From Ruminococcus flavefaciens (GTDB lineage Bacteria; Bacillota; Clostridia; Oscillospirales; Ruminococcaceae), in the NCBI GenBank assembly GCA_015067005.1, contig SVNH01000005.1, positions 98,694-162,693 of the forward strand: a stretch of 64,000 nucleotides of DNA, given 5' to 3'. Shown in pieces: positions 50,068 to 60,383 of this stretch (positions within the stretch are counted from its first letter, which is position 1; every line of letters starts with the position of its first letter). Made by a program: the position numbers and the translations under genes. The notes below the pieces were generated by a model that saw nothing but the letters and a program-made list of their open reading frames with translations, had not been told where the DNA came from and searched no databases.

Positions 50068-50664
50068 ATGTTAAAGATAGATGAGGCTATAATAGTCGAG
50101 GGAAAATATGATAAGATAAAGCTATCGTCTGTCGTGGATGCAGTAATAATAGTTACGAACGGTTTCGGCATTTTCAAGGACAAGGAAAAGCTTGAACTGA
50201 TACGATATTATGCGCGTACTACCGGTATCATAATACTGACTGATTCCGACAGCGCAGGAAGGAAGATACGCGGCTATCTCAAGGGGGCTGTGGACGGAAA
50301 TATCCGTAATGTATACATCCCTGATGTGTTCGGAAAGGAAAAGCGTAAGGAAAAGCCGTCAGCAGAGGGAAAGCTCGGAGTTGAAGGCATAAACGTCAGG
50401 ACACTTTCCGAGATATTTGAGAAAGCAGGTATAGCTGCTTCGGAAAGCGGAAAAACAAGTGATATTACTAAGCTTACACTGTTTGAACTCGGTCTCAGCG
50501 GAGGCAGACAGAGCAGTTTGCTGCGTAAAAGGTTACAGAAAAAGCTTGGGCTCCCTGAGCTTATGTCTGCATCAGCACTTGTAGAGGTCCTCAGGACTAT
50601 GATGACAGCTAAAGAGCTTGAAGACTATGTAAAAGCCTGCAAGGAGAATGAAAATGATATATAG
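50068..50664 (+). CDS. rnmV: Ribonuclease M5 (TOPRIM + DUF4093-type)
   Basis: IDEAIIVEGKYDKIKLSSVVDAVIIVTNGFGIF; TDSDSAGRKIRGYLKGAV. Confidence 0.92.
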   Translation: MLKIDEAIIVEGKYDKIKLSSVVDAVIIVTNGFGIFKDKEKLELIRYYARTTGIIILTDSDSAGRKIRGYLKGAVDGNIRNVYIPDVFGKEKRKEKPSAEGKLGVEGINVRTLSEIFEKAGIAASESGKTSDITKLTLFELGLSGGRQSSLLRKRLQKKLGLPELMSASALVEVLRTMMTAKELEDYVKACKENENDI

Positions 50665-52033
50665 CAGTCTGTTGTTCATCTATGGATTTCTGCCTGTATC
50701 AATGCTGATATATCATCTTTCCCCCAAAAAGAGTCAGCCGGCGGTCATGCTTGGGCTGAGTGCAGCGTTCAGCGCGATGATAGGCTTGAGATACCTTGCA
50801 TTTGTAAGTATATACGTCCTGATAAATTATGCGTCTACGAGACTGATAGGACATTACCGCAGCAAAAAAGAAATATCACTGCCAGTGTTCTCATTTGCTG
50901 TATTCTGCGACCTTATTTCTCTGTTTGTATTCAGGACTGATCTGTTTTCTGAAGTGAGACTGAGTTTAGGTTTCCCGGAGACGTTCTTCCCGATAGGCAT
51001 ATCATTTCTGGCTCTTTCAGCGATAGGAATGCTTGTTGACGTTTACAGCGGAAAAATCGAAGCCGAACGGAATATTATACTGTTTTCACTGTATATGATA
51101 TTCTTTCCGCGTCTGATAATGGGACCTATACTGAGATACAATAGTTTCAGGAAAGCAATGGAAGGAAGAAAGACTGATCTTTCGGAAATAGGTGTCGGAC
51201 TTACGATATTTGTAAAAGGTCTTGCAAAGAAGATAATCGCGGCAGATACTCTTTATCAGCTATATACAGCGGCACACAGCACTTCGCTGAAGGAAATGTC
51301 CTCGCTGACAGCATGGCTGGGAATGATAGCTTACGTAATGTGTCTGTACTTTACTCTTTCGGGATTTGCAGATATGGGAACAGGTGTGAGCTACTGCTTT
51401 GGCATAAAGATGCCTCAGAGCTTCAACTATCCTCTGTTCAGTACGAAGATCCGCTATTTTGCAGCAAGATGGCACATACAGCTGATACAGTGGATGAGAA
51501 GATACGTCACAAAGCCGCTGTTCTCGCGTTTCAGCAATAATGTTCTGCGAAGGCTGATATACATTGGAGTATGGGGGCTGTTCGGCTTCTGGTATACGTT
51601 CAGCGCAAACGGATTGATATGGGGACTGCTTTTAGGTGCGGGAATAACTCTTGAAAACAAGTTAAGCAGTGCAAAGCTGCTCAACGTAACAGGGATCATA
51701 TATACCTTCTTTGCGGTAATGATCTGTTTTGTATTCTTCTCCGGAGAGAGCCTTTCGTATTCGCTTCGCTACATCGGAGTAATGGCAGGCGGCGGTGCAA
51801 ACTTTGCGGATACATTTTCACTGTATCTGCTGAAATCATACATAGTTGTATTGCTGATAGGTATGTATGCCTCGACAGACCTGTTTAAGAATATGATGAT
51901 GAGATCCGGCAAGAATAAGGTAAGAACGGCAGTTTCAGTGATCTCGCCGGTAATGGTATTATCACTGCTGATAGTATGTACTGCACTTATATCGTATTCC
52001 GGCAGTTCTGAAATGATACTTGTAAGGCTGTGA
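50648..52033 (+). CDS. MBOAT family (DltB/AlgI-like) membrane protein
   Basis: YMIFFPRLIMGPILRYNSF; FNYPLFSTKIRYFAARWHIQLIQWMRRYVTKPLF; multi-TM. Confidence 0.9.
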   Translation: MKMIYSSLLFIYGFLPVSMLIYHLSPKKSQPAVMLGLSAAFSAMIGLRYLAFVSIYVLINYASTRLIGHYRSKKEISLPVFSFAVFCDLISLFVFRTDLFSEVRLSLGFPETFFPIGISFLALSAIGMLVDVYSGKIEAERNIILFSLYMIFFPRLIMGPILRYNSFRKAMEGRKTDLSEIGVGLTIFVKGLAKKIIAADTLYQLYTAAHSTSLKEMSSLTAWLGMIAYVMCLYFTLSGFADMGTGVSYCFGIKMPQSFNYPLFSTKIRYFAARWHIQLIQWMRRYVTKPLFSRFSNNVLRRLIYIGVWGLFGFWYTFSANGLIWGLLLGAGITLENKLSSAKLLNVTGIIYTFFAVMICFVFFSGESLSYSLRYIGVMAGGGANFADTFSLYLLKSYIVVLLIGMYASTDLFKNMMMRSGKNKVRTAVSVISPVMVLSLLIVCTALISYSGSSEMILVRL

Positions 52034-53175
52034 GGAGGGAACGCAGAATGACAAAATTATCAAGCAGAGTAACTGCGGTATTGGTACTTGCATTTATGGC
52101 ATTCTTTATGCTCTTCACATTTTTTGGCAAAAAGGAAAATACGTCAGAAAACGAGAACCGACCTCTTGCAGGAAGACCGGGATTCAGCTTGTCAGCGGTT
52201 GCGGACGGCATTACGGCTTCTCAGCTTTGTACCTATACTGCCGATCATTTCGCAATGCGCGGTGTATGGATAAAGCTCAATGCAGCTATAAGGGCTGAGG
52301 TCGGAGAGGGTATCATCAATGGCGTGTATATCGCTGATGATATGCTTCTTGACGCAAAGGCTTCGGACAGAGCAAGAGCAGACGAAAGTATCAGGGCGCT
52401 TAACAGCTTTGCTGAAAGCTATAACGGTGCAATATACGTAGTTGCAGTTCCGACTTCATCCGGAGTATACCGCGAAAAGCTACCTGAGCAGTTCGATACC
52501 TACCGCGAAAGTCAGCAGATCAGTGACATCTATGATAAACTCAACCGCAAGATAAAGAGGATAGATGCTTACAATATCCTGAAAATGCTCAATAAGAATT
52601 ACATCTATTACCGCAGCGATAATAAGTGGACAAGCTATGGAGCATACTGTGTTTACAGAACCGTAATACAGCGTCTTGGGTTTATGCCTACGACATATGA
52701 TAAATACTCAGTACACCATGCGACCTCAGACTTCCGCGGTGATCTTTACAACCGCAGTCAGTATGACGGTATACGACCGGATATAATTGATTTCTATTCA
52801 TGCAGCGGCGGTGCCGAGATCGTAAGCTGTACGGGATATTATAACAGCGGAAAAACTGTTGAGAAGCATATATATGACGAAAAGCTGCTTGATATGGATT
52901 ATATGTATAATGCGTATCTTGGCGAGGAAGTACCGCTTCTGAAGATAACCACAACAGTAAAGAATGAACGAAAGCTTCTCGTGATTAAAGATGATTATGC
53001 CGATTGCTTTATACCGTTCCTTACACAGCATTACAGCGAGATAGACGTTGTATCTCCTGAGCTTATAGAAGGCAGGATAAGCGATCACATAAGATTCTCA
53101 GACTATGAACAGGTACTCTTTCTGTTCGGTATCGAGAATCTGAGCAAACCGGACATTCTATCAACACTAAGCTAA
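52030..53175 (+). CDS. DHHW/AlgX-like protein partner of MBOAT
   Basis: NTSENENRPLAGRPGFS; ADHFAMRGVWIKLNAAIRAEVG; VVAVPTSSGVYREKLP; YYRSDNKWTSYGAY at the position of the DHHW motif. Confidence 0.85.
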   Translation: MRRERRMTKLSSRVTAVLVLAFMAFFMLFTFFGKKENTSENENRPLAGRPGFSLSAVADGITASQLCTYTADHFAMRGVWIKLNAAIRAEVGEGIINGVYIADDMLLDAKASDRARADESIRALNSFAESYNGAIYVVAVPTSSGVYREKLPEQFDTYRESQQISDIYDKLNRKIKRIDAYNILKMLNKNYIYYRSDNKWTSYGAYCVYRTVIQRLGFMPTTYDKYSVHHATSDFRGDLYNRSQYDGIRPDIIDFYSCSGGAEIVSCTGYYNSGKTVEKHIYDEKLLDMDYMYNAYLGEEVPLLKITTTVKNERKLLVIKDDYADCFIPFLTQHYSEIDVVSPELIEGRISDHIRFSDYEQVLFLFGIENLSKPDILSTLS

Positions 53176-55282: not shown

Positions 55283-58210
55283 ATGAAAGTTTTTAAGCGA
55301 ATAACAGCATTTGCGATGTCATTAGCGCTGACTGGACAGGTTATATTGTCTGATGCAAGCGGTATAATGGTCTCGGAAAAAATATCAGTACCGGATAAGC
55401 TTTATTATGCCGACAGCTTCGGAGATGTACTGAGCGGTGCTGAATACACTATAATGGTGCGGCTCAGCGGAAAGCTTATAACAGCGGATAATACCGGCAA
55501 TGTCATTCAGTGGGAGGACAAAGGCGATAACTCACAGCGCTGGAAAATAGTCAGCTGCCGCAACGGTATGTGCAGTATTCATCCGGCTTCGGACACCTCG
55601 CTGGCACTTACCGTTGAAAACGGCGACAGTACAAACGGCAACAATATATACCTCTCTGCTTATGAGGACGTTCCTTCTCAGCATTTTATACTTCACCGTA
55701 CTGATGATGCTTACTATATAACTGCGGAGTGCTCAGGAAATGCCGCGCTCGATGTATATGACATAAGCTATGATAACGGCGCGAACATTGACCAATGGGA
55801 CTATTGGCAGGGTGAGGGACAGAAGTTCTATATCCGTCCTGCTGACGGCGACTACTCTCTCATACGTGGCGATATGAATATGGACGGCAAGGTAAATGGC
55901 TGCGACAAGATACTCATGGGGCGTTATATTTACGGCGGCGTGAAGAATTCTTCTGTTCCGGAATCATATATAGCTGATATGAATGCGGACGGAGTTTGTG
56001 ATACTAAGGATTATCAGCTGATAACTGACTATATCCTCGGCAGGGATATTGATATTGAATCCCGGAGCAGGATACCGTATGAAAAGGAAGATACGGCGTA
56101 TCTGTTTGCGTATTTTCTCGGCAACAGTCCGGAGCAGGAGAGACTTTCTTATGCAGTAAGCCTTGACGGCTATCATTTCAAGGCACTTAACGGAGGACGT
56201 GCTGTGTGGAAGTCAGGAGTCGGCACAGAATGTTTGCGAGATCCCTACATATTCAAGGGTGAGGACGGTCTTTACCATATGCTTGCAACGGATATGAAGT
56301 CGTCGCTCGGCTGGAACAGTAACCGTAATCTTATAAGTGCGAAGTCTACCGACCTTGTACACTGGTTTGATGAGTCGCTGATCGAGATAGCAAACAAGTA
56401 TCCGAATATGCAGAATGCCGACAGAGCATGGGCACCGCAGGCTATTTATGACCGTGAAAGGGACTCCTATATGATCTATTTTGCAGCGAGAGTTCCGGGA
56501 ACTGATGACAGGACGATAATGTACTATGTTTACAGCAAAGACCTTAAAAACCTCGATACTGCACCGCAGCTGCTGTTTGCTCCGCAGAACGGAAACGATG
56601 CAATAGATTCGGACATCATCTTTGAAAACGGCAAGTATTATATGTATTACAAAAACGAGACCAACAAGCGTATATATCTTGCGGTATCCGATCATGCAAG
56701 CGGTCCTTACAGTGAGATAAAGCAGGTCTCTGAGGGCAATATAGGAGTTGAAGGACCTAATATCTACAAGCTGCTCGGCAGTGATAAGTGGCTGATGATG
56801 TCGGATGCTTACGGTAATGGCTATTACGTTATGCAGGAAACGTCTGATCTTGAAAACTTCACAACTGTACCGCGAAGTGAGTACAGTTTCGACTTTACTC
56901 CGCGTCATGGGTATGTTATACCAATAAACGGCGATCAGTATAATGCTCTTGTGAGCGCTTTCCCTTCTGACGGACTGAATCAGATAAACACAGGCATCGA
57001 GCCTGTGAACATACATATCAATTTAGGTGATGACGCGGTTCTGCCGGACAAGGTTACAGCAGATTACAGTGACGGGGCAAAGACTGGATTCACAGTGAAA
57101 TGGGATGAAGCAGAGCGTCAGAAGATAGATACTTCCAAGCCCGGAAGGTATAGTGTTACCGGAAAAGTTATATCCTCCTCGGATATTTACAGCGAGCCGT
57201 TCATAACTGAACGTGCGGATCCATATATCGTTGACGGCGAGGATGGGTACTACTATTTCACAGCCTCTTATCCGGCTTACGGAAGCGTGGACAAGGGATA
57301 CGACAGGATAATACTGAGACGAAGCAGAACGGTTGCCGGACTTGCCGAGGCTGAGGAAAAGGTAATATGGAAAGCTCATTCATCGGGCATAATGGCAAAA
57401 CATATCTGGGCGCCTGAGATGCATAAAATAGGCGGAAAGTGGTATATGTTCTTTGCGGCAGGGGAGAGCGGCAATATCTGGGCGATACGTCCTTACGTTT
57501 TGAAATGCGACGGTGATCCGTATACCGGAAACTGGACAGAATGCGGTCAGATGCAGGCATCCTACGGTGATGACGAGTCGTTCATGAATTTCTCACTTGA
57601 TATGACCTACTTTGAGCATAATGGCAGACATTATGTCATCTGGGCAGAGATAAAAGGCGATTCCTCGCTGTTCATGGCGGAAATAGATCCGGCTGAGCCG
57701 TATAAGCTTATCTCGAAACCGATACTTCTCACAAAGCCTGAGTATAACTGGGAACTCGTGAATAACCGCGTCAACGAGGGCGCGGCGGTACTTGTGACGG
57801 ATGAAAAGGTATATGTATTCTTTTCGGCATCCGGAACAGGTTCGGAGTATTGTGTCGGAAGGCTCGAAGCGGACGCAGATGCAGACCTTATGGACGTAAA
57901 AAGCTGGAGAAAAACTGATCATCCGGTGCTTTCAACAGGTGATCTGAACGGAGAATCAGGTCCGGGACACAACTGCTTTGTAGTTGATGAAAACGGTGAT
58001 CTGCTTATTGTATACCATGCGCGGCCGGAGTCTCATGCTTCCGGAAACTGCGGAACATACAGCAAAGATCCTCTGTATGATCCATGCAGGCATACGCGCA
58101 TCAAGAGAGTGATATTCAGTGCGGACGGCACTCCTGTTATCAATCTCAGCAAAGAAGCTGAGCTCTCAGCAGCATATAAGACTATAACGGCTGAAATAAC
58201 GGTTGGATAA
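55283..58210 (+). CDS. Secreted multidomain enzyme: ricin-type lectin (CBM13-like) - dockerin - GH43 - Ig-like - GH43
   Basis: Signal peptide; QRWKIVSC/QHFILHRT ricin-type repeats; internal dockerin GDMNMDGKVNGCDKILMGRYI...ADMNADGVCDTKDYQLITDYI; GH43 motifs LRDPYIFKGEDGLYHM, RAWAPQAIYD and RADPYIVDGEDGYYYF, KHIWAPEMHKIGGKWYMFFA. Confidence 0.88.
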   Translation: MKVFKRITAFAMSLALTGQVILSDASGIMVSEKISVPDKLYYADSFGDVLSGAEYTIMVRLSGKLITADNTGNVIQWEDKGDNSQRWKIVSCRNGMCSIHPASDTSLALTVENGDSTNGNNIYLSAYEDVPSQHFILHRTDDAYYITAECSGNAALDVYDISYDNGANIDQWDYWQGEGQKFYIRPADGDYSLIRGDMNMDGKVNGCDKILMGRYIYGGVKNSSVPESYIADMNADGVCDTKDYQLITDYILGRDIDIESRSRIPYEKEDTAYLFAYFLGNSPEQERLSYAVSLDGYHFKALNGGRAVWKSGVGTECLRDPYIFKGEDGLYHMLATDMKSSLGWNSNRNLISAKSTDLVHWFDESLIEIANKYPNMQNADRAWAPQAIYDRERDSYMIYFAARVPGTDDRTIMYYVYSKDLKNLDTAPQLLFAPQNGNDAIDSDIIFENGKYYMYYKNETNKRIYLAVSDHASGPYSEIKQVSEGNIGVEGPNIYKLLGSDKWLMMSDAYGNGYYVMQETSDLENFTTVPRSEYSFDFTPRHGYVIPINGDQYNALVSAFPSDGLNQINTGIEPVNIHINLGDDAVLPDKVTADYSDGAKTGFTVKWDEAERQKIDTSKPGRYSVTGKVISSSDIYSEPFITERADPYIVDGEDGYYYFTASYPAYGSVDKGYDRIILRRSRTVAGLAEAEEKVIWKAHSSGIMAKHIWAPEMHKIGGKWYMFFAAGESGNIWAIRPYVLKCDGDPYTGNWTECGQMQASYGDDESFMNFSLDMTYFEHNGRHYVIWAEIKGDSSLFMAEIDPAEPYKLISKPILLTKPEYNWELVNNRVNEGAAVLVTDEKVYVFFSASGTGSEYCVGRLEADADADLMDVKSWRKTDHPVLSTGDLNGESGPGHNCFVVDENGDLLIVYHARPESHASGNCGTYSKDPLYDPCRHTRIKRVIFSADGTPVINLSKEAELSAAYKTITAEITVG

Positions 58211-58229
58211 ACAGAAAAGGGGAATTGGT

Positions 58230-60383
58230 ATGAATTTCAAAAGAATGGTTGGAACAGTAACAGCAGCACTGGTAATGCTGTCGGGCATGACTGTAAAAGT
58301 GCCTGAGAAGTCCGCACCTGCGGATGCTGCTATGGTCATAAGTCTTGCACCTGAGAACAGGTACGAGATAAACGGCGGAAAGTTTCAGGGCTGGGGAACG
58401 TCTCTTTGCTGGTGGGCAAACAGAGTCGGCTACTCTGACATTCTCGCACAGCAGACTGCTGATCTGTTCTATGGCGATGAAGGTCTGCGAATGAACATCG
58501 CAAGATTCAATATCGGAGGCGGCGATGATCCTTCACACACCCACATAACACGCACAGACTCAAATATGCCCGGCTATACAGTTTATAACAACGGCAATGT
58601 GACCTATGACTGGAACGCTGACTATAATCAGCGAAATGTTGTCCAGAGGGCGATCAAGGCTTGCGGAGACGATATGATAGTTGAGATGTTCTCAAATTCA
58701 CCTCCGTATTATATGACCAACAGTGGATGCTCAACCGGCAATAAGGACTCCGGAAAGAATAACCTACGCGACGATCAGTATACAGCATTTGCGGAATATC
58801 TTGCCGAGGTATGCGACCATTACGAGAAATACTGGGGAGTTAAGGTGCAGAGTATTGACCCCATGAACGAGCCTTATACTAACTTCTGGGGCGCATTGAG
58901 TCAGAAGCAGGAGGGCTGCCACTTCGATCAGGGAGAATCCGAATCCAAGATACTCGTTGAACTGAAAAAGTCTCTTGACAAGCGAGGTCTCAATGACGTT
59001 ATTATCTGCGGAACAGATGAGACCTCTATCGACACACAGATAGATTGCTTCAACAAGCTTTCCTCTGAGGCAAGGAACATTCTCGGACGTATAGACACCC
59101 ATACATACAGCGGCACACAGCGTTCAAAGCTGAAGGAGACTGCTCTGGCAAACGGAAAGAATCTCTGGATGAGTGAAGTTGACGGCAGCGGAGTATCTGG
59201 TACAAATGCCGGAGAAATGGGCGCAGGACTGTGGCTTGCGGAGCGTATGGTACTTGACTGCAACGAACTCAACTGTTCAGCATGGATACTCTGGCAGGCT
59301 ATCGACAACCACATCTCCTCAGTAGGCATGAATGGAAACAAGGATAAGGGAATGGTCAATGTAAACGGCGGATTCTGGGGACTTGCAGTAGCCGATCATG
59401 ATAAGAACGAGATAATTCTTACAAAGAAATACTATTCATTCGGACAGTTTTCGAGATACATCCGTCCGGGTATGACTATGCTTAAATCTTCCGGAAATAC
59501 AATGGCTGCATTTGACGAAAAAAACGGCAGACTTGTGGTCGTAGCAATCAACAGCGGAAGTTCGGCTCAGGAATTCAACGTTGACCTCTCCGGCTTTGAT
59601 GAGGTAGGTACATCTGCACAGGCTGTACGTACAAGCAATACCGAAAGCTGGAAGGATATAGGAAATATAGCGATCAGCGGTACATCGCTCAAAACAGACC
59701 TTGCACCGCAGTCGATAACAACTTACATCATTGACGGTATGAAGGGCGGTTCGGCACTTGAAAACAAGATAGAGATAAAGCCGGATATGCTCAGCGGAAC
59801 AGAATCATGGAAGAACATGGAGTCTTCTGATTTCTACAAGGCTTATGACGGCAGCACAGGTACATATTTTGACGGACTTGGTGACGGCTGGACAATGGTG
59901 GACCTCGGCAGAAATTACAATATATCAGCTATTGGTTATGCACCGAGAAACGGTTATGAGTATCGTATGGTAGACGGCAGATTCGAGTTCTCAAAAGACG
60001 GTGTCAACTGGGAAACGGCTTATACAGTAAGCGGAAAGCCTAATTCCGGAATGAATTACGTTAAGAAATTAGGCTGCGAAAATACGGCAAGGTATGTGCG
60101 CTATGCAGTACCGAGCGGAGCGCCTCAGAACGAATACAACAAAGATAGCGTTTATTGCTGCAACATTGCAGAGATAGAGCTTTACGGCACACCGGAAGTC
60201 ATTAAAGGCGATGTGAACAGCGACGGAGCAGTCGACACAGCAGATATTGTTATGCTTCAGCAGTATCTTTTTGGAAAAATAACGGAGATAAATATGTCGG
60301 CAGCTGATCTTTGCAGGGATGATAAACTCAACGGTTATGACATGATACTTCTTCGCAGACTGGTGTTTGCAAAGGCTGTCTGA
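58230..60383 (+). CDS. Secreted GH30-type glycosidase with F5/8 type C (CBM32-like) domain and C-terminal dockerin
   Basis: FQGWGTSLCWWANRVGY; NIGGGDDPSHTHITR; MFSNSPPYYMTNSGCSTG; IDPMNEPYTNFWG (acid/base E); LWMSEVDGSG (nucleophile E); discoidin-like tail; dockerin GDVNSDGAVDTADIVMLQQYL. ATG 58230 with GGGGA. Confidence 0.88.
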   Translation: MNFKRMVGTVTAALVMLSGMTVKVPEKSAPADAAMVISLAPENRYEINGGKFQGWGTSLCWWANRVGYSDILAQQTADLFYGDEGLRMNIARFNIGGGDDPSHTHITRTDSNMPGYTVYNNGNVTYDWNADYNQRNVVQRAIKACGDDMIVEMFSNSPPYYMTNSGCSTGNKDSGKNNLRDDQYTAFAEYLAEVCDHYEKYWGVKVQSIDPMNEPYTNFWGALSQKQEGCHFDQGESESKILVELKKSLDKRGLNDVIICGTDETSIDTQIDCFNKLSSEARNILGRIDTHTYSGTQRSKLKETALANGKNLWMSEVDGSGVSGTNAGEMGAGLWLAERMVLDCNELNCSAWILWQAIDNHISSVGMNGNKDKGMVNVNGGFWGLAVADHDKNEIILTKKYYSFGQFSRYIRPGMTMLKSSGNTMAAFDEKNGRLVVVAINSGSSAQEFNVDLSGFDEVGTSAQAVRTSNTESWKDIGNIAISGTSLKTDLAPQSITTYIIDGMKGGSALENKIEIKPDMLSGTESWKNMESSDFYKAYDGSTGTYFDGLGDGWTMVDLGRNYNISAIGYAPRNGYEYRMVDGRFEFSKDGVNWETAYTVSGKPNSGMNYVKKLGCENTARYVRYAVPSGAPQNEYNKDSVYCCNIAEIELYGTPEVIKGDVNSDGAVDTADIVMLQQYLFGKITEINMSAADLCRDDKLNGYDMILLRRLVFAKAV

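Follow-up and report, generated by a model that had tools for sequence, protein, structure and literature searches.

The locus raises the question of whether two neighbouring genes that belong by family to an O-acyltransferase system can still encode one when the residues of the acyl relay have been replaced and, if they do not, why they are kept. MBOAT-SGNH pairs are usually described as machines for the acylation of wall polymers; the MBOAT His passes the acyl group from acyl-CoA to the Tyr of a C-terminal FXYXXF peptide, from which the Ser of the SGNH partner receives it (PMC12148441). Both residues are required experimentally, as His and shuttle-Tyr mutants of PatA lose auto-acetylation (PMC12148441). 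The working residues of the partner, as defined in PatB1, are the Ser of KDS, the Asp and His of TDHHW, and the Arg of the Block II DXR motif, which contributes the oxyanion hole (PMC9487903). The window, that is the whole 64,000-nucleotide stretch of Ruminococcus flavefaciens DNA analysed here, contains a pair of this type in which a first-pass annotation had noticed that both signature motifs are substituted; it proposed a coordinated loss in adjacent, overlapping genes that are not decaying, and a non-catalytic or re-purposed pair. Automatic annotation would label these predicted dead genes as acyltransferases.

The features of the locus are collected in Table 1. The MBOAT is a 459 aa protein from ATG 50654 (461 aa from the alternative start, ATG 50648); its homologues begin at the second Met, which is ATG 50654, and this start overlaps the end of rnmV. 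The DHHW protein has 375 aa from ATG 52048 or 381 aa from the alternative GTG 52030; the ATG is the better start, having the better ribosome site, with GGAGGG upstream. The overlap of the two genes stated by the first-pass annotation therefore probably does not exist; the MBOAT gene does overlap rnmV. In the genus the order of the locus, on contigs of sufficient reach, is alaS, HIT, apt, comEC, holA, rnmV, MBOAT, DHHW and usually SDR, with gene names assigned by homology and by eye; rnmV lies directly 5' of the MBOAT gene in 15 of 16 genus loci, and the contig of the 16th ends inside the MBOAT.

Table 1. Coordinates of the MBOAT-DHHW pair, its upstream neighbour and the sites compared with active homologues
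Feature	Position	Strand	Basis or remark
Toprim protein, RNase M5 type, named rnmV here	50068..50664	+	Conserved upstream neighbour, marks the locus
MBOAT-fold membrane protein (DltB/PatA type), predicted catalytically dead	50654..52033	+	Pfam PF03062, AlphaFold2 and Foldseek
Second conserved MBOAT His (RWH), present here	51473..51475	+	Genus-wide column
Tyr codon (TAT) at the MBOAT catalytic-His position	51593..51595	+	Aligned on DltB GFWH
MBOAT C-terminal hexapeptide MILVRL at the FXYXXF acyl-shuttle site	52013..52030	+	Leu codon 52019-52021 at the shuttle Tyr
DHHW/SGNH-like protein, one N-terminal membrane helix, predicted catalytically dead	52048..53175	+	Pfam PF14286, PDB matches
Block V: D-N-K-W for D-H-H-W (GAT AAT AAG TGG); Lys at the catalytic His, Asp retained	52618..52629	+	Genus-wide column
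Block I: KDD for KDS, Asp at the nucleophile Ser	52993..52995	+	Genus-wide column
Block II: S-P-E for D-x-R, oxyanion-hole Arg gone	53053..53061	+	Genus rows against canonical rows

Both proteins are recognisable members of their families, and the comparison with Pfam advised by the first-pass annotation places each above its threshold: the MBOAT scores 45 bits against PF03062 (gathering cut-off 27) and the DHHW protein 100.5 bits against PF14286 (cut-off 25), with a further match to PF16822 at 39.7 bits. AlphaFold2 models built with the genus alignment are confident, with pLDDT of 81.6 for the MBOAT and 87.3 for the DHHW protein; Foldseek matches the former best to DltB (6bug, E 1e-11), followed by HHAT and PORCN, and the latter to 4nzk (E 3e-20) and also to PatB1, AlgJ and AlgX. 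PatB1 and 4nzk are PDB matches of the DHHW protein by sequence as well. These models and matches indicate that the folds of both proteins have been kept.

Among known systems the pair resembles the O-acetyltransferases PatA/PatB and BcPatA1/PatB1 in its folds, its Pfam families, and the combination of an MBOAT with an adjacently encoded, membrane-anchored SGNH/DHHW partner; the C-terminal helices that PatA-type MBOATs have beyond the DltB core are found in the window MBOAT too. DltB of the D-alanylation system DltB/DltD is the closest solved MBOAT (6bug, 8jem) by sequence and fold; unlike DltB, the window protein lacks the catalytic His, has two extra C-terminal helices as in PatA, and scores 120.3 bits against the DltB equivalog model TIGR04091, below the cut-off of 375. 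AlgI with AlgJ or AlgX is likewise an MBOAT with a DxHW SGNH-like partner, and the match to PF16822 is a further point of likeness; the window DHHW protein lacks the His and Ser of the AlgJ/AlgX triad, and its fold match to them is weaker than that to PatB1.

The two substitutions were placed exactly, to the codon, by the first-pass annotation. The MBOAT reads GFW-Y-TFS, and in pairwise alignment its Tyr falls on the His of GFWH in DltB (6bug/8jem); the Lys of the DHHW protein falls on the second, catalytic His of TDHHW in PatB1 (5v8d) and of RTDHHW in 4nzk. A mis-registered motif is ruled out by these alignments together with the genus-wide columns. The loss extends beyond the two signature motifs: in contrast to PatA/PatB pairs, the window pair is without the catalytic His, the FXYXXF Tyr, the SGNH His, the oxyanion Arg and the Ser, and the Asp of Block V is the sole named working residue of the acyl relay left in it.

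The state of the window pair is that of its genus. The set comprises 125 genomes, with 111 species read for the MBOAT and 109 rows for the DHHW protein; the MBOAT was found in 111 of the 125 genomes, and in all 68 of those at least 90% complete, nearly always adjoining its DHHW partner. At the catalytic-His column of the MBOAT there are 108 Tyr, 3 Phe and no His (n=111 species), and none of the 113 MBOAT ORFs of the genus contains FXYXXF. The Block V His column of the partner holds 93 Lys, 15 Arg, 1 Gly and no His (n=109); the neighbouring Asp is kept in all 109 rows, the Block I Ser in 61 (it is lost in 48, about 44% of species), and the oxyanion Arg in none. Cultured R. flavefaciens strains YL228, 007c, XPD3002 and YRD2003 carry the same substituted form, and the sharing of the substitutions across the genus rules out a strain mutation or a sequencing error. 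In canonical homologues elsewhere in the family and order every catalytic site is intact (MBOAT 64/64, DHHW 68/68); set against the loss in the genus, this makes the state nearly all-or-none. By sequence, both genes are assigned here to the MBOAT and DHHW families; they are nonetheless predicted not to be acyltransferases. In one genome (G141, L451) a substituted MBOAT stands behind rnmV, and neither a DHHW nor an SDR gene was found in the downstream stretch that was read; this genome may be able to dispense with the partner.

Replacement of the lost His from elsewhere in the proteins was considered and set aside. The remaining conserved His of the MBOAT (RWH) is missing from 33 of 111 species. 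Two His of the DHHW protein, 230 and 334 (381-aa numbering), are invariant in the genus, and a triad rebuilt from them would be unlikely, with the oxyanion Arg absent everywhere and the Ser absent in many species.

Purifying selection acts on both genes. In the comparison with the nearest species, dN/dS is 0.017/0.20 = 0.08 for the MBOAT and 0.011/0.25 = 0.05 for the DHHW protein, values which resemble that of the neighbour rnmV, and omega lies between 0.04 and 0.16 over 28 close pairs for both genes; the first-pass statement that these are not decaying pseudogenes is borne out. The substituting residues vary in codon: Tyr at the MBOAT site is TAT in 56 and TAC in 52 species, and Lys in Block V is AAA in 64 and AAG in 29, and this alternation of synonymous codons argues that the Tyr and Lys are themselves held by selection. 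Block V is the best conserved of the DHHW segments compared, with a mean top-residue frequency of 0.86 against 0.61 overall. The C-terminus of the MBOAT (51977-52030) retains across the genus a tail pattern of approximately CTALISYxGSSxMxLxxL despite the loss of the shuttle Tyr; because this pattern is kept, the tail probably still has a role. That the genes are decaying and on their way out is considered highly improbable, and for the genus Ruminococcus is already contradicted: the longer branches of the substituted rows and the state of the genus g248 described below would fit decay, but dN/dS is near 0.1, nearly all frames are open, and the MBOAT is present in every one of the more complete genus genomes. 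Rows G004 and G077 are broken across frames, which may be assembly error.

The origin of the pair can be read from its position. In sister genera of the family an intact MBOAT-DHHW pair stands behind the same genes, including rnmV, which makes the substituted pair the positional descendant of a catalytically complete one; the genes thus encode an MBOAT and SGNH (DHHW) pair whose ancestor, at this same position, was an active-looking O-acyltransferase pair. Recent duplication of the genome's own intact pair is ruled out, as it is an intact pair that occupies this locus in sister genera. Seven further genera of the family carry a predicted dead or nearly dead pair behind rnmV, each with its own substitutions: the MBOAT His site holds Tyr or Phe (Arg or His in two rows of genus g161), the DHHW His site holds Arg, Lys, Asn or Ser, or keeps His with the Ser lost, and FXYXXF and the oxyanion Arg are lost in 19 of 19 rows. 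The two g161 rows differ from one another; G539 (L352) keeps the MBOAT His with FIMFQI at the shuttle motif and TDRRL in the partner, G430 (L353) has Arg at the MBOAT His site and FLCFTL at the shuttle motif, and both are possible intermediates of loss.

An alaS tree of 56 genomes requires 8 changes for the substituted state (7-9 in bootstraps), at least 5 of them forced by well-supported branches, which indicates that the loss recurred. This count comes from a single marker gene, and regain of the whole relay, or replacement by transfer, is possible in place of repeated loss. It could also be proposed that one old paralogous pair, already dead, was inherited by all and lost in some genera; the MBOAT tree does unite all substituted rows in one clade (SH-aLRT 99), in contradiction to the alaS tree and to the DHHW tree, and this conflict is the main weak point of the recurrence. 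The paralogue proposal is nevertheless improbable, since the substituted and canonical pairs share the rnmV locus with no genome seen to have both there, a single origin is given by 0% of alaS bootstraps, and the DHHW tree places substituted rows beside canonical rows of sister genera, with an AU test rejecting a single substituted clade (p 0.003). The MBOAT tree is trusted less, as its substituted rows are long branches. The genus g248 and genome G691 were excluded from the count of substituted pairs, the DHHW gene in them not being beside an rnmV-linked MBOAT. In g248 the MBOAT behind rnmV is barely recognisable (22-26% identity; L440, L441, L442) and none was found in G517; the rnmV-linked locus lacks an adjacent DHHW gene, a degenerate DHHW protein is encoded elsewhere, and the genus possibly represents a later stage of the same process.

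The pair, its adjacency and its substituting residues (Tyr, Lys/Arg) are thus kept by purifying selection, and this raises what they are kept for. One answer would be re-wired chemistry, in which transfer is still catalysed through the Tyr in the MBOAT lumen and an Asp-Lys/Arg of the SGNH domain, possibly involving a different donor or a separate shuttle peptide; the near-invariance of Tyr and of Lys/Arg, held through synonymous codons, and the very well conserved pocket segment of Block V speak for it. This is considered improbable, however, as the nucleophile Ser is gone in 48 of 109 rows and the oxyanion Arg in all 109, the shuttle Tyr is gone everywhere, the second MBOAT His drifts, and the substituted genera differ in the residues chosen (Y or F; R, K, N or H). 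A caveat to inactivity is that AlgJ retained about 20% esterase activity in vitro when its catalytic triad was mutated (PMC4148444), which, by analogy, may count against a wholly inert partner. On balance the pair is very probably non-catalytic for the acyl relay, and the first-pass proposal of a coordinated loss gains support from the accompanying loss of the shuttle Tyr and oxyanion Arg and from the recurrence of loss in the family. The scaffold, sensor and alternative-chemistry roles it had listed would be indistinguishable by sequence.

Retained folds, missing catalytic residues and purifying selection are the marks of pseudoenzymes, and the pair has all three, with inactivity read from its residues. 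Quite probably, the complex has been retained for a role that is not enzymatic. Somewhat favoured is a maintained pseudoenzyme complex in which the MBOAT would provide a membrane platform and the SGNH domain would retain the old active-site pocket as a binding site, with Asp-Lys/Arg replacing Asp-His. The pocket would then bind either a wall polymer or, within the same cell, an acyltransferase complex that is intact, and the bound partner would be anchored or regulated without acyl transfer. The conserved pocket with its Asp-Lys/Arg suggests ligand binding without turnover; as judged only from conservation, the most likely role would be to bind wall polymer or to regulate an intact acyltransferase.

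Elsewhere in the genome of the window are a second MBOAT-DHHW pair and a third MBOAT gene, all of them intact. Among the genomes with a substituted pair that were checked, all have at least one further MBOAT except G539, in which the MBOAT His is kept; in six canonical genomes the rnmV-linked MBOAT is the only one. The presence of intact MBOATs in nearly all genomes with a substituted pair suggests either redundancy or regulation of the intact system. In a narrower and compatible version of the pseudoenzyme reading, the substituted pair would have the single task of binding and modulating its intact MBOAT-SGNH counterpart in that cell. This distribution would favour it, as would the DltB match 8jem, which is a tetramer, and the mammalian, Gup1-like HHATL, an MBOAT with its catalytic His replaced that is reported to act as a negative regulator of the HHAT pathway (PMC5831804). 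HHATL is likened here by description, and differs in being eukaryotic, a single protein without an SGNH partner, and in having Leu for His. The narrower version is rather unlikely, as the substituted and intact pairs are not neighbours, and an extra MBOAT may reflect only the redundancy that permitted loss. The intact DHHW protein of this genome (L086 5384-8740, G000 contig C1) has a Thr/Pro/Ala-rich insert between its N-terminal region and SGNH domain that is not found in the substituted DHHW protein, and a 592-aa protein encoded beside it resembles an FkbH-type HAD protein.

For the pseudoenzyme complex, a broader and tentative extension, falling somewhat short of an even chance, is that MBOAT-SGNH pairs have a second, non-catalytic function already performed by the active rnmV-linked pair; the acyl relay would have been dropped independently in several lineages and the complex kept, for instance as a module that is anchored in the membrane and serves glycan binding or wall assembly. 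A lost relay, maintained selection and repeated origin at one locus together suggest an unrecognised non-enzymatic role of MBOAT-SGNH complexes; selection holds the substituted and presumably dead complex throughout a large genus of gut bacteria that degrade fibre. His-less bacterial MBOAT or SGNH pseudoenzymes were not found described in the open literature searched, an absence that is weak evidence. The role is made testable by the sharing of one locus between active-looking and substituted forms in related genera, and by the cultured R. flavefaciens strains that carry the latter.

Elsewhere in the window, two adjacent glycoside-hydrolase-like ORFs (55283-60383), GH43-like and GH30-like as named by eye, contain dockerin-like repeats, for example DVNSDGAVDTADIVMLQQYL; such repeats are as expected of cellulosomal Ruminococcus enzymes.
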